From positions 1 through 25,176 of IMG/VR virus record IMGVR_UViG_3300005511_000078: a stretch of DNA of 25,176 nucleotides. The stretch is one strand, 5' to 3'. Shown one piece after another: positions 6,204-22,487 of the stretch; position 1 is the stretch's first letter; each line of letters begins with the position of its first letter. A program made the translations under genes and the position numbers. The stretch is from a virus. Below the pieces are notes generated by a model that saw only the letters and a program-made list of their open reading frames with translations, had not been told where the DNA came from and searched no databases.

Positions 6204-6262
6204 CACCACACCGCCGCATAGCCACCACCATGCGGCATCCACCACAAGAGGAGATTACCAGC

Positions 6263-7333
6263 GTGAAGCTATCCATAGCCCGCCAAGACCTCGCGCGCGT
6301 GCTGACCAACGTCGGCCGCGTCGTCGAGGCTCGCACAACCATTCCTATTCTTTCCAACGTCAAGCTGTCCGCCGTTACGGGGCAGTTTCGCCTGACAGGC
6401 ACCGACCTTGAAATCGTTGCAACCGACGTCGCGCCGGCGGACGTCACCGAGGAAGGCGACATCTGCGTCGACGCGAAACTGTTGGCCGATATCGCAAAGA
6501 AGGCCGGCGGCGACATTTCCATCAGCCTGGAGGCGGATCGCCTTGTTGTAAAATCAGGCCGCAGTGTGTTTAAGCTCTCCGTGCTCGATGCTGGCGACTT
6601 TCCAGATCTGAGTCAGGGCAAGTATGACGCGATCTTCGATGTCGATCTGGCCGCGATTGTCGCCCCCACGGCATTCGCGATCTCCACGGAGGAGACGCGC
6701 TATTACCTGAATGGCGTCTTCCTGCACCTTTACGAAGACGGCATTCAGGTGCTGCGCGCCGTGTCGACCGACGGTCACCGCCTTTCGCGCCACCAAGTCG
6801 CATATCCTGGCGAAGACGCATTCAAAGGCGTGATCGTTCCGCGCAAGACGGTCGGCATGCTTCCCAAGGGAACGGTCAATGTGTCAGTCGGCGAGGCGAA
6901 AATCCGCATCGCCAGCGGCGACTTCGTCCTCACCAGCAAGCTCATCGACGGCACGTTCCCTGACTATGAGCGCGTCATTCCGCGCGCCAACGAGAACATT
7001 GTCACAGTCGATCGCGATGCATTCATGAAGGCTGCAGACCGCGTCGCGACTGTCAGCAGTGAGCGCGGCAAGGCCGTCAAGCTCAGCATCGCCCCCGGCT
7101 CGGTCGGCTTCACGGTAAACAATGCGGACGCTGCAGCCACGGACGAGATCGAGGCGGAATACAGCGGCGAGCCGCTCGAGATCGGCTTCAATGCGGCGTA
7201 TCTGCGAGATCTGTTTAGCGTGCTTCCGTCTGGGCCTGTCACCATTGCGCTCGCCGATGGCGGCTCGCCTGGTTTGTTCAAGTCTGCGGCTTTCGAGGGG
7301 CTGGTGCTCGTCGGCATGCCTATGCGGGTATAG
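6263..7333 (+). CDS. dnaN: DNA polymerase III beta subunit (sliding clamp)
   Basis: This is a 356-residue protein, close to bacterial DnaN. The N-terminus (M-K-L-S-I-A-R-Q-D-L, then T-T-I-P-I-L-S-N-V-K-L), the central D-A-G-D-F-P-D-L, the Y-L-N-G-V-F-L and S-T-D-G-H-R-L-S blocks, and the C-terminal V-L-V-G-M-P-M-R-V are all typical of the three-domain clamp. It should form a ring on DNA and tether polymerase and other clamp-binding proteins. No phage replicative polymerase is visible, so it may recruit host Pol III or other factors. The start is GTG at 6263, with GAGGAG in the repeated leader; the in-frame ATG at 6230 lacks a Shine-Dalgarno. It ends with no terminator before the next gene. 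Confidence 0.95.
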   Translation: MKLSIARQDLARVLTNVGRVVEARTTIPILSNVKLSAVTGQFRLTGTDLEIVATDVAPADVTEEGDICVDAKLLADIAKKAGGDISISLEADRLVVKSGRSVFKLSVLDAGDFPDLSQGKYDAIFDVDLAAIVAPTAFAISTEETRYYLNGVFLHLYEDGIQVLRAVSTDGHRLSRHQVAYPGEDAFKGVIVPRKTVGMLPKGTVNVSVGEAKIRIASGDFVLTSKLIDGTFPDYERVIPRANENIVTVDRDAFMKAADRVATVSSERGKAVKLSIAPGSVGFTVNNADAAATDEIEAEYSGEPLEIGFNAAYLRDLFSVLPSGPVTIALADGGSPGLFKSAAFEGLVLVGMPMRV

Positions 7334-8596: not shown

Positions 8597-9118
8597 ATGG
8601 CCCACGCCACCACTGCGCCCGCCGATACGCGCCCCGTCGAGTTTGACGCGAGGCTCATGAACTACTACCCGCACCTCATGCGCCTATCCGGCAGGTTGTC
8701 CAACAACAAGACCGAGCAGGAAGACCTATTCCAAGACAGCATCGCCTACATCTTGGCGCATTGGACGTCGTTCCGACCGGATGGCGGATTCTATAACTGG
8801 ATCACCCTATGCATGCGCCATGTCGCGCAGAACGGCCGGCGCAAGTCGCGCGTCAGATCACGGCATATGCCTACCGTGTCCGACGAGCGCGCAATGGCTG
8901 CTGTGATGGTATCGCCGAACCAAACGGACTCCGTGTCGCTCAATGAAACGCTGGCGGCGCTTGATCCTGGCCGATCCGGCGAGATCGTCATGATGCGCGC
9001 CATGGGCGAGACGCTTGAAACCATCGGCGCCAAGTACGGCATCGGCAAGGAGCGCGTGCGCCAGATCGAAGAGAAAGAGCGCAAGCGGCTGAAGCTGGGG
9101 AGGCCGCTTGATGCTTGA
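8597..9118 (+). CDS. Small sigma-70-family (ECF-like) factor
   Basis: This is a 173-residue protein. Residues 18-85 resemble sigma region 2 (L-F-Q-D-S-I-A-Y-I-L-A-H-W, then G-G-F-Y-N-W-I-T-L-C-M-R-H-V-A-Q-N), and 115-166 resemble region 4, with the helix-turn-helix L-E-T-I-G-A-K-Y-G-I-G-K-E-R-V-R-Q-I-E matching sigma region 4.2. Regions 1 and 3 are absent, as in ECF factors. It could direct host RNA polymerase to a subset of phage promoters; no anti-sigma gene is seen. The start at 8597 has the repeated leader. It overlaps the helicase start by 8 bases, so the two are coupled. A sigma-derived regulator without promoter recognition is an alternative. Confidence 0.75.
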   Translation: MAHATTAPADTRPVEFDARLMNYYPHLMRLSGRLSNNKTEQEDLFQDSIAYILAHWTSFRPDGGFYNWITLCMRHVAQNGRRKSRVRSRHMPTVSDERAMAAVMVSPNQTDSVSLNETLAALDPGRSGEIVMMRAMGETLETIGAKYGIGKERVRQIEEKERKRLKLGRPLDA

Positions 9119-10847
9119 GCTCCGCCACTACCAGCGATCGGCCATTGACGCGCTCTACTCCTATTGGGCGGAAGGCGGCGGCAATGGCCTGATCGTGCTT
9201 CCGACTGGCGCCGGAAAGGCGCTGGTGATCGCCAAGCTGATCGAGGAGCTGCTTGCCGATTATCCCGACATGCGAATCCTCAATGTCACGCATTCTGCGC
9301 CCTTGGTCGGGCAGAACTACCAAGAATTCCTTGGGCTATTGCCGTTCGCGCCGGCGGGAATCTATTCCGCAGGGCTGAATCGGCGTGATGCCAAGGCGCA
9401 GGTGCTGTTCTGTGGCATTCAGTCCGTCTGGAACAAGGTTGAGCAGATCGGCGATATCGATCTCGTCATCGTCGACGAGGCGCACGCCATCTCGCGCAAC
9501 GCCAACACACAATACGGTAAGTTCTTCAAGGACGTGCGCGAGCGCAATCCGGATAGCCGGACATGCGGCACGACCGCGACCGACTACCGCATGGATTCCG
9601 GACGGCTGACCGACGATCTCGACGATGACGACGCGACAGCTGTGGACGGCACGCCAGTCAAGTTCAAGCTCTTCGACGATGTCGTCTATGAAATCGGCAT
9701 CGGCGAGCTCATCGAGCAAGGCTTTCTCACGCGCCTGACCAGCCAAAAAACCACCAGCAAGATCGACCTAAAGGGAATCGGGAGCCGTGGCGGCGAATAC
9801 ATCCCAGGCCAGGTGTCGGAAGCTGCGGAGCGCATCATCGAGGCGGCCGTGGCCGAAGACATGGTGCTGTCCGAAGGGCGGCGCGCCGGCTTGTTCTTCA
9901 GCACCAGCAAGGAGAACGCCAATCACGTCGCCGAAGCCGTCCGACGGCACGGCCGGACGTGTGCCGTCCTGACCAGCGACAACTCCCACCAGACCAAGGA
10001 AATCTTCGAAGGCTTTCGCGCTGGCAAGTATTGGGCGATCAGTTCGGTGAGCATGATCACGACCGGGACTAATTTTCCGTTTGTGGATTTCATATCGTTA
10101 ATCCTCAGCACAAAAAGCCCCGGCAAGCTGGTGCAGATCCTGGGCCGCGGCACACGCAATTGCGCCGGCAAAGACGATTGCCTCATCGCAGACCACGGCC
10201 GGAACCTTGCCTATCACGGGCCGATCGACCAGATACGCCCACGCGAGCCCGGCAAGGGCCTCGGAGAGCAGCCAAAGAAGCTCTGCCCGCAAGACATGAC
10301 GGACGTTAATGGCAATTGCGGCTGCGGCGAGCTCATCCCGATCTCGATCATGACATGCCAGTGCTGCGGCTACGTCTTCCCGCCCAACGAGGAGGAGAAG
10401 ATCACGGCGCAGGCCGACACAACGCCAGTGCTGTCGACGGAAAAGCCTTGGTTTCCTGTTTCGTCGCGGACGTTCCGACACCACCCAGGAAAAGAGGGAA
10501 AGCCGGACTCCGTCAAGTGCACCTACATGGTGTCCATGAAGGCGATCAACGAATGGATATGCTGCGCGCATTCTGGATACGCCAAGACGAAGGCCGATCG
10601 CTGGTGGCTAGCCCATGGCGGCCAGAGGCCGTTCCCCAAGACCGTGCTGGAATTTCTTGAGCGGCAGCACGAGCTGGCCGGTACTGCTGAAGTGCAACTC
10701 GATTATGCGCGCAACGCCAAGTACCCTGATGTCATGGCGCATCGCGTTGGCGAGCGTCAAGCAGCCAACGACAACGCGCCTGCGGCGGCGAATGACAACC
10801 GCGGCTACGCTGAGCGTTGGGAATTAGACGACTACATCCCCTTCTGA
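9111..10847 (+). CDS. Superfamily 2 DEAD/DEAH helicase
   Basis: This is a 578-residue protein. Motif I is L-P-T-G-A-G-K-A (Lys36), motif II is D-E-A-H (122-125), and motif VI is Q-I-L-G-R-G-T-R (342-349), which gives a two-domain SF2 helicase. Motif I ends in Ala37 where Thr or Ser normally binds Mg2+, which may weaken ATP hydrolysis. After the helicase core there is a Cys-rich insert (N-C-G-C-G-E-L, C-Q-C-C-G-Y), probably a zinc ribbon, then a C-terminal domain with W-W-L-A-H-G-G and A-A-N-D-N tracts. A replication or recombination role fits its neighbours. ATG 9111 is preferred to TTG 9108 because of GGGGAGG at 9097-9103. Confidence 0.85.
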   Translation: MLELRHYQRSAIDALYSYWAEGGGNGLIVLPTGAGKALVIAKLIEELLADYPDMRILNVTHSAPLVGQNYQEFLGLLPFAPAGIYSAGLNRRDAKAQVLFCGIQSVWNKVEQIGDIDLVIVDEAHAISRNANTQYGKFFKDVRERNPDSRTCGTTATDYRMDSGRLTDDLDDDDATAVDGTPVKFKLFDDVVYEIGIGELIEQGFLTRLTSQKTTSKIDLKGIGSRGGEYIPGQVSEAAERIIEAAVAEDMVLSEGRRAGLFFSTSKENANHVAEAVRRHGRTCAVLTSDNSHQTKEIFEGFRAGKYWAISSVSMITTGTNFPFVDFISLILSTKSPGKLVQILGRGTRNCAGKDDCLIADHGRNLAYHGPIDQIRPREPGKGLGEQPKKLCPQDMTDVNGNCGCGELIPISIMTCQCCGYVFPPNEEEKITAQADTTPVLSTEKPWFPVSSRTFRHHPGKEGKPDSVKCTYMVSMKAINEWICCAHSGYAKTKADRWWLAHGGQRPFPKTVLEFLERQHELAGTAEVQLDYARNAKYPDVMAHRVGERQAANDNAPAAANDNRGYAERWELDDYIPF

Positions 10848-10851
10848 CGCG

Positions 10852-10888
10852 TTGACAAATTTGTATGTTTACACCAAGGTGTGACAAT
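10852..10888 (+). promoter_or_regulatory. Operator site 3 with possible promoter
   Basis: The operator 13-mer lies in reverse orientation at 10852-10864, five bases after the helicase stop codon. On the plus strand it starts with TTGACA. TTGTAT (10861-10866) and GACAAT (10883-10888), 16 bases apart, could form a rightward promoter for the metallophosphoesterase and the genes after it. The promoter hexamers are moderate; the operator match is exact. Confidence 0.5.
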
Positions 10889-10935
10889 CACCAGCGCCCA
10901 CCAAGCGCGAATGCACACCACGAAGAGGAGACGAC

Positions 10936-11436
10936 ATGACCACGCGCGACGTTTGGTTCATTAGCGACACCCATTTTGGCCACAACAATATCATCACGTA
11001 TTGCCGGCCTCAGTTCTCCTCTGTTGAGGAGATGGAAGATTCCATCATCACCAAATGGAACGAAAAGGTTAAGCCGCAGGATCTGGTCTATCACCTCGGC
11101 GATTTTGCATGGAAAACGTCAGATGCGATGCGCGTTCGGCCACTTCTGAACGGTGCCATCCGACTCATCGTCGGAAATCATGACGACATACCGTCACTTG
11201 CAGCGGCCGGCCTATTCCAGCGCTTCTATCTCTGGAAGCAATTCCGCGAAGAGGGCTTCACGGCCTCACACATTCCGATGCGGTTTGATCAATTGCGGCA
11301 TGGTGCGAAGAACCTCCATGGACACGTTCACGGCAATCTCAACGGTCTGGAAGACTTCCATCGCGATATGTCTGTGGAAAGCATCGGCTTCGCACCTGTT
11401 CATTTCGACGATATCGCCCTTTGGGCAAAGTCTTAA
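10936..11436 (+). CDS. Calcineurin-like metallophosphoesterase
   Basis: This is a 166-residue protein with the full motif set: D-T-H-F-G-H (Asp11, His13, His16), L-G-D-F (Asp56), G-N-H-D (Asn81, His82), His112, and G-H-V-H-G (His130, His132). It should hydrolyse a phosphoester using two metal ions. Small phage members of this family act on nucleotides, nucleic acid ends or proteins; the substrate here cannot be read from sequence. It is the first gene after operator site 3, so it probably begins a separate repressor-controlled unit. The start has the repeated leader. Confidence 0.9.
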   Translation: MTTRDVWFISDTHFGHNNIITYCRPQFSSVEEMEDSIITKWNEKVKPQDLVYHLGDFAWKTSDAMRVRPLLNGAIRLIVGNHDDIPSLAAAGLFQRFYLWKQFREEGFTASHIPMRFDQLRHGAKNLHGHVHGNLNGLEDFHRDMSVESIGFAPVHFDDIALWAKS

Positions 11437-11477
11437 GCGCCAACCTGCGCAACCACCACACCACGAAGAGGAGATTG

Positions 11478-11825
11478 ATGATGGGCGAGAGAAGAGCCGA
11501 GGATGGCTTAATTTCAGTTGCCATGAATGACGGCAAGTACACCATTCAGCAGACGGCACCCGGCAAGTGGGAAGCCTTGCGCTACGGCGAGGAGTGGCCG
11601 GCATTCCGCGATAACGGCCCTGACAATCTTCATGTCGCGCTTGCGTATGAGGTTGCCGCGTTGCGCGCCGAAGTTTCCAGCCTGAAGGCCGAGGCGCAGT
11701 TCCTGCTCGATCGGCTCGACGACATCGAGCTCGACGACGACACGGACGAACTTATCCGTGACTGGAATGGCCACGTTGAGCCGTCGATTGCGCGTCTGCG
11801 CCAGCTTGTGCAGGTGTCAGCATGA
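11478..11825 (+). CDS. Hypothetical protein with coiled coil
   Basis: This is a 115-residue protein. The N-terminal 60 residues look like a small beta domain (K-Y-T-I-Q-Q, then K-W-E-A-L-R-Y-G-E-E-W), and residues 60-95 form a heptad-patterned helix (V-A-A-L-R-A-E-V-S-S-L-K-A-E-A-Q-F-L-L-D-R-L), probably a dimerising coiled coil. No family is recognised. Two adjacent ATG codons (11478, 11481) fit the leader; GGAG lies four or seven bases upstream respectively, so the true start may be the second. Its stop overlaps the next gene (ATGA). Confidence 0.5.
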   Translation: MMGERRAEDGLISVAMNDGKYTIQQTAPGKWEALRYGEEWPAFRDNGPDNLHVALAYEVAALRAEVSSLKAEAQFLLDRLDDIELDDDTDELIRDWNGHVEPSIARLRQLVQVSA

Positions 11826-12580
11826 AGCCCGCCAACTCTGTAGCCGCCGTGCCCGGCGTATTCGACCCAACCGCCATAGCCACCATCGGCCACAACCAAC
11901 CACCAGCATCGCCCTTCGACGCCGTCCGACAGGAAATCGAAGACCTCTTCGAAGAAGCAAAGCATTGGGCTGACGGCGACCCAATCGACAGCCAGGAAAT
12001 GCACGACGCGATCGAGAAACTGCGAGACGGTATTCACGAAGCCGGCAAGCGCGCCGATGCGCTGCGCGTCGAGGAGAAGAAGCCGCTAGACGATCAGGTC
12101 AAGGCCATTCAGGACCGCTACAACGTCTACATCCAGCCTAAGCGCGGCAAGGTCGATCTGGCCAAGTCTACGCTCGACACATTGCTCACCCCCTGGCGCA
12201 CCGCCAAGGCCGCCGCAGCCGCCGCAGAGGCCGCACGCGTGGCTGCAGCCGCAGAGGCGGCTAGGGTGGCCGCCGTCGCCGCTATTCAAGCGTCCAGCGG
12301 CAACCTCGCGTCTCGTGAAGAGGCGGAAGAGTTGCTGGCCGATGCCAAGCGGCTGGAGAAAACGGCCAAGCGGGCGGACAAGGCGGCGACGACGGGCACG
12401 GGGCTTAGGACTGTGTGGCGAGCTGAACTCGTAGACGAAGAAGCTGCCATGGAGTGGACGTGGGCGCGCGCCAAGGAAGAGGTGCTTACCGTGGCGCAGA
12501 GGAATGCCGATGAGGTGGTGCGTGGTGGTGCGCGGCAGGTGCCTGGGTTCCGGGTTGTCGAGAGCAAGGTGGCGAGTTGA
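11822..12580 (+). CDS. Coiled-coil phage protein with I-G-H-N-x-P-P motif
   Basis: This is a 252-residue protein. I-G-H-N-Q-P-P at residues 22-28 is a short motif common in alphaproteobacterial phage proteins. A long charged, Ala-rich helical region follows (about 35-190), interrupted by P-L-D-D-Q-V-K-A and P-K-R-G-K-V. A C-terminal module begins G-L-R-T-V-W-R-A-E-L and ends V-R-G-G-A-R-Q-V-P-G-F-R-V-V-E. Similar proteins occur in phage recombination regions beside nucleases or annealing proteins, but their activity is not known to me. DNA in 12200-12270 is a short imperfect GCC/GCA repeat encoding poly-Ala. It is coupled to both neighbours by overlapping stop and start codons. Confidence 0.6.
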   Translation: MKPANSVAAVPGVFDPTAIATIGHNQPPASPFDAVRQEIEDLFEEAKHWADGDPIDSQEMHDAIEKLRDGIHEAGKRADALRVEEKKPLDDQVKAIQDRYNVYIQPKRGKVDLAKSTLDTLLTPWRTAKAAAAAAEAARVAAAAEAARVAAVAAIQASSGNLASREEAEELLADAKRLEKTAKRADKAATTGTGLRTVWRAELVDEEAAMEWTWARAKEEVLTVAQRNADEVVRGGARQVPGFRVVESKVAS

Positions 12581-16979: not shown

Positions 16980-16995
16980 GAAATGAGGAGTGCTG

Positions 16996-17628
16996 ATGCA
17001 GCCGCTTGAACGACCACCGAGCATAGAAATTATGGAAGCCAACGTGATTGAGGATCAGACTGGCAGCACTTTAGTCATGTGCGCAGATGACGAAGGTCAG
17101 ATTCTGCGGATGGAGGTTCGCGTCCTCGATAACGACTACCAGAGAAATTTGCGTGGTCAGAGCGCGCTGCATTATCTGCTCGGTGAACTCGGCATGATGC
17201 ATATCGATCGACCAGAGGATCTAGTATCAAAAAGATTGCACCGATGGGCGTGGGAAAAGGTTGCATCGATCGCGACACCGAAAACAACGCCTGCAGATGT
17301 GCAGCCAATCCAGATATCACCGCGGAGTGACAAGCCTAGTGATGGTCGGTTTGTCTACGTGATTTCATGCGAAGGTAGTGATCCGCCGCTGTGTAAGATC
17401 GGCATCGCCGGATCACCAGAGAAGCGCGTCAGACAGCTTTCGACGTCTAGCCCACATCATCTCAGGCTTGAAATGGCCAGGTACTCAGACCGAGCGCGCG
17501 CAGTGGAAGCTGCCGCGCATTCGCATTTTTCGCACGCGCGACGGAACGGCGAGTGGTTCGAAGTATGCGCAACCGAGGCGATCAGCTTCGTCAACTGTGA
17601 AATTACTCAGATGCGGAAAGCAGCATAA
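16996..17628 (+). CDS. GIY-YIG / T5orf172-like protein
   Basis: This is a 210-residue protein. Residues 117-190 match the T5orf172/MUG113 branch of GIY-YIG nucleases: G-R-F-V-Y-V-I, then C-K-I-G-I-A-G-S-P-E-K-R-V-R-Q-L, then R-A-V-E-A-A-A-H-S-H-F, then N-G-E-W-F-E-V. The N-terminal 110 residues form a separate domain of unknown type. It could be a DNA nicking or cleaving enzyme. ATG 16996 is chosen because GAGGAG ends five bases upstream; GTG 16990 overlaps that signal. It is coupled to the primase by TAATG, and both are downstream of operator site 4. Confidence 0.75.
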   Translation: MQPLERPPSIEIMEANVIEDQTGSTLVMCADDEGQILRMEVRVLDNDYQRNLRGQSALHYLLGELGMMHIDRPEDLVSKRLHRWAWEKVASIATPKTTPADVQPIQISPRSDKPSDGRFVYVISCEGSDPPLCKIGIAGSPEKRVRQLSTSSPHHLRLEMARYSDRARAVEAAAHSHFSHARRNGEWFEVCATEAISFVNCEITQMRKAA

Positions 17629-19787
17629 TGGCCAAGCTAAACTTCAAGGTTCCGCCGATCTCGCTCAATCGTGCGCCGATAGACGTCGCTCTGTCCTACG
17701 TATCCGCCGGGATACCCGTTTTCCCGTGCCGCGAGGAGCCGTCGGAAGGAATCGATTACTCCACCGGTGAAGTGATCGAGTTTGCGGAGAAGGCTCCGTA
17801 CACATCGGACGGCCTTCGCGGCGCGACTACGTCCACTCGCATCGTAAATATCCTGTTTGGCGAACGGCATACGGGCGCTGCAATTGGTGTGCCCACTGGC
17901 GAGAAGCTCGGCGGATGGGTTCTAGATCTGGATCGACACGGCGACCGAGACGGCCACGAATGGCTGAAGGAGATGGAGGCTATTCATGGCGAGTTGCCGG
18001 AAACCCCGAGGGCGAAGACAGCCAACGGTGGCACCCACATCTTCTTCAGGCATGTTCCCGGCATCCGAAACCGAGCGGCCATAGCGCCTGGGGTCGATAC
18101 GAGGGGTGACGGCGGGTACATTCTGAGTCCTGGCTCTGTGATGGCAGACGGTCGGCGTTACGAATGGCTGGACTGGCAGGGCGATGGGGTCCCAGAGTTC
18201 GCCGAGGCACCGGCATGGCTCGTCGACATGGTTATCACCAAGGCGCCACCACCGGCTGAGACCAAACCACGGGAATACACTTACCAACCAGAAGATGACG
18301 GGGCGGCTAGATACTTCTCTCGGGCGTTCGAACTGGAGCTATCAGCACTCGCTAGTCAGCCGACTGGCGGTCGCGGTCAAAAGCTGTTCGCCAGCGCGTG
18401 CTCTATCGGCGAGATCGTCGCAACCGGTAATATCTCGCGGTCTGACGCAGAGGAAGGCCTTATCGATGCCGCCCGTGCCAATGGCCTGGTAGCGAAGGAC
18501 GGTGAGCGGCAATGCTGGGACAAGATCAAGCGCGGCCTCGACAAGACGGCCAATTCACCGCGGCAACTGCCAGAGCGAGAATACGAAAACGACAATACGC
18601 CGGTGGACTCCGAGGGGATCAGCCGCATGGCTAAGAACACCATGGAGCGGAAGCGGCGAGAGGAGGCGGGAGATGCGTCGCCAGTAGAAGAACAGCCAAG
18701 CCGAGAGCAGCCGGCGCCAACCGAATCAACGGCGCCAAAAAAGCGTGAGCGTTTCGAACTGACATGGTTCGACGCGATCGAGGAGGGCCGACCGAAAGAG
18801 ACGATCCTGAAGGGCTGGCTGGGCGTCGGTGAATTCACCACCATCTCTGGCCTTCCTGGCACGGGCAAGAGTGTCGTGACCACCGATCTGGCGTGCCACA
18901 TCGCGGCTGGCATGGATTGGCACGGCATCAGGGTTCAGCAAGGCCTCGTCGTCTATGTCGCAGCAGAGCGCAAGAAACTGACCGAGCGGCGCATGATGGC
19001 CTTCCGTAAGCATCATGAAGTGAAAGATGTTCCACTGCTCGTCGTGGGCGGCATGCTTGACTTCACCCGCGACCAGAAGGACGCGGAGGAGATAGTCAAG
19101 GTTATCAAGGATGCCGAGACTATCACCGGTCACAAGTGTGTATGGGTGATTATCGACACCCTTACACGTGTCTTCGGTGCCGGCGACCAGAACGCATCAA
19201 AGGATATGGTGAAATTCGTCAGGTCTTGCGATTTCATCCTGACGGAGACGAAAGCGCACGTTACGGCCATTCACCACAGCGCCTGGAACGGCGAGCGAGG
19301 GAAGGGAGCCATCGACTTGGACGGTGCCGTGGACGCCTCGTTCATGGTCAAGAAGGATGGCAACAAGCATAGGCTAGTCTGCGACGGCACCAACGACGGC
19401 GAAGACGGGGATGTACTGACATTCACAATGAAGTCGATACAGATCGGTATGGACGAGGAGGGCGAGCCAACCACGGCGCCTGTCGTGGTGCCTGCCGACA
19501 TGATGGGCCCAGGCGAGCGTTTGACCGAGAGCATCAAAGGACACAGCGCCAGGGCGCTAGAAATCCTGCATGATCTAATCGGCTCCGTAGGCATTCCTCC
19601 CGAAGGCCCGCACTTCCCTGATAGCGTGCTCGTAGTCAAGGAGGAGACATGGCGTCAGGCGTTCTATGCCGACGACACCAAGGGCACAAAACAGGACACG
19701 CTGAGGGCTCGTTTCAAGCGAGCTCATGCATCGCTAGTGGAGACAAGGAAAGTGTCTCAGGTGGGTGAATGGGTGTTCCCGAGTTAG
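17628..19787 (+). CDS. Primase-polymerase / RepA-like helicase fusion
   Basis: This is a 719-residue protein. The N-terminal 190 residues are a bifunctional primase-polymerase (Prim-Pol) domain: G-I-P-V-F-P-C, K-A-P-Y, catalytic V-L-D-L-D (Asp100, Asp102), T-A-N-G-G-T-H, and G-V-D-T-R-G-D-G-G-Y-I. After a charged linker (about 320-375) comes a RecA-like helicase domain with Walker A G-L-P-G-T-G-K-S (408-415), Walker B I-I-D-T (Asp510) and the H-V-T-A-I-H-H-S sensor segment. It should prime and unwind phage DNA at initiation. A dense heptamer cluster starts immediately after its stop, a natural origin for this protein to act on. It is coupled to the GIY-YIG gene. Confidence 0.9.
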   Translation: MAKLNFKVPPISLNRAPIDVALSYVSAGIPVFPCREEPSEGIDYSTGEVIEFAEKAPYTSDGLRGATTSTRIVNILFGERHTGAAIGVPTGEKLGGWVLDLDRHGDRDGHEWLKEMEAIHGELPETPRAKTANGGTHIFFRHVPGIRNRAAIAPGVDTRGDGGYILSPGSVMADGRRYEWLDWQGDGVPEFAEAPAWLVDMVITKAPPPAETKPREYTYQPEDDGAARYFSRAFELELSALASQPTGGRGQKLFASACSIGEIVATGNISRSDAEEGLIDAARANGLVAKDGERQCWDKIKRGLDKTANSPRQLPEREYENDNTPVDSEGISRMAKNTMERKRREEAGDASPVEEQPSREQPAPTESTAPKKRERFELTWFDAIEEGRPKETILKGWLGVGEFTTISGLPGTGKSVVTTDLACHIAAGMDWHGIRVQQGLVVYVAAERKKLTERRMMAFRKHHEVKDVPLLVVGGMLDFTRDQKDAEEIVKVIKDAETITGHKCVWVIIDTLTRVFGAGDQNASKDMVKFVRSCDFILTETKAHVTAIHHSAWNGERGKGAIDLDGAVDASFMVKKDGNKHRLVCDGTNDGEDGDVLTFTMKSIQIGMDEEGEPTTAPVVVPADMMGPGERLTESIKGHSARALEILHDLIGSVGIPPEGPHFPDSVLVVKEETWRQAFYADDTKGTKQDTLRARFKRAHASLVETRKVSQVGEWVFPS

Positions 19788-19788
19788 G

Positions 19789-20024
19789 CCAGACAGACCA
19801 GACAAAGCCAGACATGTCTGGGTATGTCTGGCCAGACAATTCGATGTCGCTAATATACACAAATGTCTGGCCTAAATGTCTGGCCTAAACCCCAGAAACG
19901 ACAGGCCAGACATACCCAGACAAAACAGAAATGTCTGGGTCTAGTCTAATAAAAACAACAGCTTAGCGGATACCCAGACATTTAGCGTTTTCTTATATTG
20001 TCTGGTGAGCATCCTACCCAGACA
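19789..20024. repeat. 14-copy CCAGACA heptamer cluster, candidate replication origin
   Basis: CCAGACA or its complement TGTCTGG occurs 14 times in 236 bases. Forward copies start at 19789, 19798, 19808, 19832, 19906, 19916, 19974 and 20018. Reverse copies start at 19815, 19825, 19864, 19877, 19932 and 19999. Two pairs abut as 14-base perfect palindromes (19808-19821 and 19825-19838), and 19861-19886 is a 13-base tandem duplication (AAATGTCTGGCCT twice). AT-rich stretches lie between copies (around 19845-19865, 19945-19960 and 19980-20000). Placement directly behind the primase-helicase suggests an iteron-type origin; a regulator-binding array is the alternative. Confidence 0.75.
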
Positions 20025-20030
20025 TCATTC

Positions 20031-20050
20031 CCCCTTTCTTTAGAAAGGGG
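20031..20050 (+). terminator. 8-bp hairpin after heptamer cluster
   Basis: CCCCTTTC (20031-20038) pairs perfectly with GAAAGGGG (20043-20050) across the loop TTTA. Flanking sequence GACAT/ATGTC extends the stem imperfectly. No U-tract follows, so it may be a weak terminator, an origin hairpin or an RNA-stability element. The remaining sequence up to 20137 holds no gene, only the leader of the VRR-NUC gene. Confidence 0.4.
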
Positions 20051-20137
20051 ATGAATGTCGGGGTGCTTGTCGGGCTTTTGAAGAGAAGAAAAAATCTGGC
20101 CTCACCAGCCGCTACCAACCACCACAGGAGACCAACG

Positions 20138-20683
20138 ATGGCCAAGACCACCACCAAGACAACAGCCAAGAAAAAGCGCACCATTCAGACGACCCGCATC
20201 AATGGTGCCAAGGTTCGCCTGGTCACCGGAGTAGACGGTAAGATCACGGTCAAGCCGGCACCGATCGACGAATGGATTTTGCAGGCGGCTGCGGTTCGTG
20301 CTCTGAAGTCAATGCCGGAATACGCTGACGAGGCACTCGCGGTTGCCGATAACGACAATGCTGGGTGCCCGAGCTTCACTATAGCAGGCGACATGAACGG
20401 CGACTATCGAAGCATGCGAGCAGCGGTGAAGGCGCAGGCGACCGGCATTGCAGCAGGTGATCCCGATTTGCGAGTTTACCTGCCTGGCGGCGTGCTGCGC
20501 CTTATCGAGTACAAGAACGCGGAAGGCACGTTTACGGCAAGCCAGAAGAAGCGCCACCCGCTACTCATGGCTCTGGGGCATCCTGTCGTGACGGTGAAGA
20601 TCGCTACAGAGGAAGAAGCCGCAGCGCGAACCGTAGAGCTCGTACGTGGGTGGCTTGCTGAAGCTAGCGACAAAGCCGCTTGA
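20138..20683 (+). CDS. VRR-NUC domain nuclease
   Basis: This is a 181-residue protein. Residues 95-160 match the VRR-NUC fold, a PD-(D/E)XK variant: A-G-D-P-D (Asp108, Asp110), R-L-I-E-Y-K (Glu124, Lys126), Q136 in T-A-S-Q-K-K, and a closing A-L-G-H-P-V-V-T-V. Stand-alone phage VRR-NUC proteins are candidate Holliday-junction or flap nucleases. The N-terminal 20 residues are Lys/Thr-rich and probably bind DNA non-specifically; residues 25-95 form an unrecognised domain. ATG 20138 is fixed by the leader with AGGAG. Its TGA stop codon lies inside operator site 5. Confidence 0.85.
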   Translation: MAKTTTKTTAKKKRTIQTTRINGAKVRLVTGVDGKITVKPAPIDEWILQAAAVRALKSMPEYADEALAVADNDNAGCPSFTIAGDMNGDYRSMRAAVKAQATGIAAGDPDLRVYLPGGVLRLIEYKNAEGTFTASQKKRHPLLMALGHPVVTVKIATEEEAAARTVELVRGWLAEASDKAA

Positions 20684-22410: not shown

Positions 22411-22487
22411 CTGTGTGTAGCGCAGACTGGTAGCGTACCTGACTTGGATTCAGGGGGTCGCAGGTTCGAACCCTGCCACACAGACCA
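22411..22487 (+). tRNA. tRNA-Pro (anticodon UGG)
   Basis: This folds as a full cloverleaf of 77 bases: acceptor CTGTGTG/CACACAG with all seven pairs, D-arm GCGC/GCGT, anticodon stem CCTGA/TCAGG with loop CTTGGAT (anticodon TGG), T-arm GCAGG/CCTGC with loop TTCGAAC, discriminator A and an encoded CCA. The TAGCGCAG and GGGGTCG segments are typical of proline tRNAs. It decodes CCA and, by wobble, other CCN codons. It begins four bases after the terminator U-tract, so it depends on read-through, RNA processing or an unseen promoter. Confidence 0.95.

Follow-up and report, generated by a model that had tools for sequence, protein, structure and literature searches.

A heptamer array and hairpin behind the PrimPol-helicase gene as the probable replication origin of phages related to Rhizobium phage 16-3

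The stretch of DNA analyzed here, i.e., the whole of a 25-kb virus record (25,176 nucleotides; "the window"), represents part of the genome of a temperate phage that is related to Rhizobium phage 16-3. The gene order of the window partly matches that of 16-3, the matched order comprising a Sak4-like annealing protein, sliding clamp, Cas4-like exonuclease, sigma-like factor, DEAD helicase, methylases, PrimPol, VRR-NUC and terminase. Both the DnaN-like sliding clamp (6230-7333, assigned by similarity to the 16-3 annotation) and the sigma-70-like factor (8597-9118) have annotated counterparts in 16-3. The primase-helicase of the window is 69% identical to p101 of phage 16-3 and 73% identical to its counterpart in RHph_X2_25, and matches the Pfam families Prim-Pol (2e-28) and AAA_25 (6.8e-34). 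Its closest solved relative by sequence is RSF1010 RepA (1g8y; E 1.2e-5, profile positions 395-548). A gene with a T5orf172/MUG113 nuclease domain lies immediately 5' of the PrimPol gene, at 16990-17628; in the origin-directed nuclease Odn of ICP1, a T5orf172 domain is joined to an initiator-like DNA-binding domain (PMC8263062). A complete tRNA-Pro (TGG) gene is located at 22411-22487, just 5' of the HNH and terminase genes, and may be a phage-borne tRNA or the remnant of an attachment site. The features discussed below are collected in Table 1.

Table 1. Features at and around the heptamer array, in window coordinates.
Feature	Position	Strand	Basis
PrimPol - AAA_25 (RepA/RecA-like helicase) - C-terminal winged helix, 719 aa; proposed initiator	17628..19787	+	Pfam
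Predicted C-terminal winged-helix domain, residues about 638-719	19539..19784	+	AlphaFold2 model and fold matches
Putative recognition helix, residues 689-705	19692..19742	+	Covariation tests (mutual information, tree-based, held-out); helix in model
Covarying codons R693, A694 and R698	19704-19706, 19707-19709, 19719-19721	+	Mutual information, tree-based and held-out tests
Heptamer array (iterons), 14 CCAGACA/TGTCTGG in both orientations	19789..20024	.	Counts; conserved slot and layout in relatives
Imperfect palindrome: GAGCATCC, repeat, stem-loop (core 20031-20050), degenerate repeat, GGTGCTT	20007..20068	.	Fold and recurrence
Two degenerate copies TGTCGGG (20056, 20068), one mismatch each, on the far side of the hairpin	20056..20074	-	Exact repeats there in many relatives
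VRR-NUC-like nuclease gene, bounding the element	20138..20683	+	Weak PHROG nuclease matches; orthologues in 16-3 and RHph_X2_25 annotated VRR-NUC

Starting 2 bases past the stop codon of the primase-helicase gene, the window carries eight copies of CCAGACA and six of TGTCTGG, all exact, within 236 bases. The former start at 19789, 19798, 19808, 19832, 19906, 19916, 19974 and 20018, and the latter at 19815, 19825, 19864, 19877, 19932 and 19999, which gives the orientation string >>><<><<>><><>. The initial annotation had described this locus as a cluster of fourteen heptamers far above chance, with AT-rich gaps and enclosed by the primase-helicase and VRR-NUC genes, and exact counts, shuffles and gene coordinates bear out each of these points. 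The heptamer occurs 16 times in the whole window, i.e., only twice outside the array, compared with 2.8 on average and at most 9 in shuffles, and no other 7-mer of the window clusters as densely (14 per 260 bp vs at most 8 in 20 dinucleotide shuffles). Two perfect 14-base palindromes, CCAGACATGTCTGG at 19808-19821 and TGTCTGGCCAGACA at 19825-19838, and a 13-base tandem duplication of AAATGTCTGGCCT (19861-19873 and 19874-19886) are likewise present as described. The AT content of the window peaks in the array region, and that of the 16-3 genome likewise peaks at its array. GC skew, which had been put forward as a check on the locus, leaves the site unmarked, with no minimum or switch at the array either in the window or in 16-3. 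The VRR-NUC-like gene begins beyond the end of the array; it is not part of the element, because the array was also found in contexts without that gene.

The initial annotation had read the cluster as a candidate origin, a reading that relatives with the same primase-helicase could speak for or against. There the cluster proved to be present: the slot directly 3' of the PrimPol-AAA_25 gene holds an array in 16-3, in RHph_X2_25 and in about 14 other phage or prophage relatives, and this recurrence strengthens the reading. The window heptamer itself is not conserved in these relatives. The word differs, being GCGTGACA, CGGGACA, CCATACA or CCGGACA in 16-3, RHph_X2_25 and other near relatives. Extending the set to prophages and more distant helicases brought the total to 52 loci and 15 words, almost all of which fit NNNN-ACA. 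The mean copy number of a locus's own word is 9.1, compared with 0.065 for the words of other loci, and in 42 of the 52 no other 7-mer cluster of the locus is as strong as the array. The array sits downstream of the helicase gene in every genome, whether that of a phage, a small element or a plasmid, and despite differences in the rest of the gene content.

The manner in which the word changes can be followed among the window, L055, X2_25, 16-3 and L015, in which the order, orientation and spacing of the repeats are largely kept while the heptamers are replaced throughout; the copies therefore changed together, in place or as a cassette. A few arrays behind the helicase are mixed (CCATACA with CCAGACA in L014, CCGGACA with CCAGACA in L025) and look like intermediates of a word change. 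The contig L009 (8169 ff and 10813-12031) encodes two helicases, each with its own array and a different word (CGGGACA and CGTTACA), and may represent one element with two replication specificities, or an element nested in another.

The array of the window is followed by a GC-rich hairpin, CCCCTTTCT-TT-AGAAAGGGG, at 20031-20050. A flanking hairpin had been noted before, although its stem measures at least 9 bp rather than 8 bp, and the end coordinate given for the cluster at that time, 20050, is the end of the hairpin; the array itself ends at 20024. The single-strand DNA fold of the palindrome region has a z of -4.15. By loose criteria, a hairpin with inward-facing repeats on both sides was found in 52/52 loci; by strict criteria, a repeat-flanked hairpin was found in 36/52, compared with 0.83 expected from shuffles. 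The arm sequences vary among loci, so that arms from different loci pair far worse than arms of the same locus, an advantage which partly follows from how the hairpins were selected. A search of Rfam returned no family at threshold, and the sub-threshold hits, animal microRNA families and a leader, were taken as chance.

A GC-rich stem-loop with such a fold directly 3' of an operon gene might also be an intrinsic terminator or an RNA structure, the repeats being mere by-products. We consider this explanation very improbable. Six loci, which represent at least three lineages, have their repeats and hairpin embedded in the helicase reading frame, up to about 300 bases 5' of the stop, and a terminator is disfavored because of this position. 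Purifying selection on the coding tail past the hairpin was unsupported for L030/L065 (4 synonymous and 14 non-synonymous codon differences), so that only the open frame serves as evidence here. The repeats are, furthermore, found on both strands and up to about 240 bp away from the hairpin, no Rfam family was matched at threshold, and the covariation with a protein helix reported below is not expected of a terminator.

Conservation among the PrimPol-helicases is high as far as about residue 620, beyond which the proteins vary strongly. An AlphaFold2 model of the variable C-terminal domain predicts the order helix-strand-helix-helix-strand-strand with a mean pLDDT of 77.5 (in domain numbering: helix 21-36, strand 51-53, helices 54-64 and 71-87, strands 91-94 and 97-100); one phage-record row was omitted from the input of the structure job. 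A full-length model agrees with the domain model, with pLDDT mostly 79-93 across the C-terminal domain. Winged-helix proteins are among the matches of the modeled domain both in Foldseek (best E 0.036, CRP family) and in VIA-align 2 (Z up to 8.8, middling values). The matches to CRP-like, ORC and MukF winged-helix structures are support for the predicted fold only, and not for kinship.

We compared every variable column of the helicase and C-terminus with the bases of the motif by mutual information (41 non-redundant proteins, 247 columns). In window numbering, residue 694 had the highest rank of the 247 columns for bases 3 and 4 (z 8.1 and 8.4; z 11.1 for the pair) and its neighbor 693 the highest for base 2 (z 11.0); both belong to the predicted recognition helix. 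In the helicase domain, whose columns share phylogenetic signal with the C-terminus, the scores were far lower, with z of at most 4.7 for bases 3 and 4. Kinship was further controlled with a tree built from helicase-domain columns only (52 rows), on which the word requires 31 changes. In pairs sharing no branch, the residue class tracked the base in 8.4/9, 7/7 and 7.1/9 of cases, and in the opposite direction in 0.

The rules drawn from these loci were written down first; a distant-family query then retrieved new loci, which provided a held-out set of 32 unseen recognition helices with an NNNN-ACA array. Words with GG came with Lys or Arg in 14/14 cases, and Lys or Arg occurred in 1/18 of the others; TG or CG came with Gln in 8/9, and Gln in none otherwise. 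A G at the second base was accompanied by Lys or Arg at residue 693 in 25/25 cases, compared with 0/7 when that G was absent, and a G at the fourth base by Lys, Arg or Gln in 22/23, compared with 1/9 without G. The held-out loci are related to each other, and tests collapsed to 17 residue-word combinations are weaker (p 4e-4 for GG, 8e-5 for the second base, 0.005 for the fourth base and 0.12 for Gln). The exceptions in this set were L146 (Thr with CGTGACA) and L197 (Lys with CCGTACA); the window itself, with Ala and CCAG, is an exception to a simple rule pairing G with Lys, Arg or Gln. Two bacterial plasmids checked afterwards, Xanthobacter L206 (Lys, CGGGACA) and Pseudorhodobacter L210 (Thr, CGTCACA), fit the rules. 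Residue 698 is a near-invariant Arg, and where it is replaced the ACA end of the word differs too, i.e., Lys with CGTTCCC (six loci), Ala or Ser with CGTTACC, Asp with CGGGAGA or CGGGGGA, and Asn with CGGGAAA; this rule was derived from the held-out data themselves and was not pre-registered.

As a negative control, we used 17 loci which share the PrimPol domain but have a different C-terminus. Heptamer arrays were mostly absent behind these 17 primases, most of the higher counts being simple repeats, and the array therefore goes with the winged helix and not with the primase domain. An exception among the control loci is L090, with eight copies of GGTGGAA. From the covariation and the blind predictions we infer that the C-terminal domain of the helicase recognizes the repeats.

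The window encodes a CI-like repressor, and lineage-specific words resemble immunity types; the array could thus be imagined as a set of operators to which a phage repressor or activator binds, the heptamer having diversified to mark immunity groups. There is little to recommend this view, given that no other column tested tracks the word as well as the recognition helix of the helicase does, that the array trails the helicase gene across many genomic contexts, and that the known operators of the 16-3 C repressor lie elsewhere, at 35.6-36.5 kb. Clusters of short repeats also mark partition (parS-like), packaging and recombination sites. Such a function is equally hard to credit here: 16-3 has its cos site at the ends of the genome and its attP at 30.5-30.8 kb, its annotation is without a ParA or ParB gene, and the protein that covariation points to as the reader is the primase-helicase.

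We propose that the array and hairpin are the replication origin of the phage, and that the PrimPol-helicase encoded immediately upstream is its self-loading initiator, an interpretation that we hold with considerable confidence. Origin activity is suggested by the anatomy of the locus and by analogy with P4, SaPI, pRN1 and RSF1010, and physical binding of the winged helix to the repeats by the covariation. According to this model, the C-terminal winged helix would dock on each heptamer, and several copies of the protein, in both orientations and often 8-13 bp apart, would bring the RecA-like helicase onto the AT-rich array. Once melted, the array would expose the GC-rich hairpin bracketed by inward-facing repeats, where, by the same analogy, the helicase could be loaded and the N-terminal PrimPol domain could prime. 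Within the family the word switches often and array-wide, and residues 693, 694 and 698 of the predicted recognition helix switch along, which would give rise to many replication-specificity groups.

A different role for the same protein-DNA contact would be that of a control site, in which the winged helix binds the array to limit replication or its own expression, as at the crr of P4 or at an incompatibility locus, the true origin being elsewhere. Covariation shows only which protein reads the repeats, and sequence-specific binding would fit autoregulation or copy control as well; the array is, moreover, downstream of the gene in all genomes, and in P4 the origin and the control region both carry the same repeats. 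We nevertheless regard a control site as unlikely. The complete 16-3 genome shows one such array only, and the element adjoins the helicase in phages, small elements and plasmids of otherwise different gene content. The AT peak and the hairpin suit initiation, and the initiators of SaPIs and SCCmec have a known or putative origin directly 3' (PMC7581432).

With this proposal the 16-3 group, classic temperate phages with a long history of study, gains a probable origin and initiator. The 16-3 paper, searched in full, mentions neither iterons nor a replication origin, and neither was found for 16-3 in the open-access literature as far as searched. Initiator helicases with an origin directly 3' are already known. 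New within the open-access literature, as far as searched, are the 16-3-group array, the finding that whole arrays frequently switch to another word, and the predictive residue-to-base pattern. On balance, we favor a broader view in which three helix residues specify most of the seven-base origin word in a large family of phage and plasmid initiator-helicases, with frequent array-wide switching generating many mutually incompatible specificity groups and with the selective pressure plausibly coming from elements that share the host cell or from nucleases that target origins. The collection now spans more than 70 natural pairings of helix and word, including near-identical helicases with different words and mixed-word arrays, which makes the evolution of initiator-origin specificity directly testable. 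If the code is true, the specificity of an unknown origin could be predicted from protein sequence alone, the origins of many uncharacterized phages, satellites and plasmids from sequence, and replicon compatibility from a few residues.

Several known systems resemble the one described here. The Rep proteins of SaPIs and Cch2 of SCCmec are self-loading initiator helicases with iterons directly 3' of their own gene (PMC7581432), and the origins of E. coli PICIs belong to the same comparison group (PMC6092414). SaPI Rep/Cch2 and the phage protein, as interpreted here, are alike in combining an initiator helicase, a C-terminal DNA-binding domain (predicted in the phage protein) and an iteron origin (putative in the phages) just 3' of the gene, and the 52 loci, with repeats directly 3' of the helicase gene, would fall in the same functional class. 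They differ in that SaPI Rep/Cch2 have a DUF927 or D5-like helicase and often a separate primase, whereas the phage helicase is of the AAA_25 type. The parts of the two sources available report no recognition-helix code for the SaPI Rep/Cch2 type (PMC7581432, PMC6092414). Classical iteron origins have tandem direct repeats of one orientation, in contrast to the mixed orientations found here.

Like the phage protein, in which the winged helix is predicted, P4 alpha fuses a primase, a helicase and a C-terminal winged helix in one polypeptide. Its helicase belongs to superfamily 3, and the two proteins differ in family, with Toprim and superfamily 3 domains in P4 as opposed to PrimPol (AEP) and a RepA/RecA-like helicase here. 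P4 alpha, with its Toprim-type primase, binds origin repeats, unwinds and primes (PMC4234260). In the archaeal plasmid pRN1, ORF904 is a PrimPol-helicase-winged helix protein with a 100-bp stem-loop origin 3' of its gene, and its authors suggested binding to motifs that were still to be identified (PMC4234260). The N-terminal PrimPol, the C-terminal winged helix, predicted in the phage protein, and the stem-loop immediately downstream are common to both, but pRN1 has a superfamily 3 helicase, a longer stem-loop and no iterons, whereas the phage has AAA_25 and 14 repeats. RSF1010 replicates with RepA, RepB' and RepC from iterons and from ssi hairpins where the primase starts (PMC4234260). Its RepA is the nearest solved relative of the phage helicase domain, and iterons and hairpins occur in both systems; in this IncQ plasmid, however, the iteron binder RepC, the primase RepB' and RepA are separate proteins, compared with one fused polypeptide in the phage.

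Comparable layouts were also observed behind other proteins. A Caenibius plasmid with a terminase gene (L208, 4041-4300) encodes a helicase that ends in a different C-terminus; behind this gene lie 12 TGCGGAA copies and a hairpin, and other reader domains may therefore share the layout. In a circular 35-kb Methylobacterium plasmid (L207, 4101-4300), a Toprim primase and an AAA helicase are followed by eight copies of CGCAACA and a CAACCCTATAGGGTTG hairpin.

Matching of initiator and origin has been described in Vibrio PLEs, where the RepA initiator domain and the origin covary, only cognate pairs replicate, and two origin groups exist; the authors argue that an origin-directed nuclease drives this covariation (PMC8263062). 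Initiator-iteron specificity is also known for geminivirus Rep (PMC12548392). In PLE RepA, geminivirus Rep and the phage helicase alike, the DNA-binding domain, predicted as such in the last, and the origin repeats, putative in the phages, differ together among relatives. The PLE and geminivirus initiators belong to other protein families, and the phage family has at least 15 words and a residue-to-base pattern.
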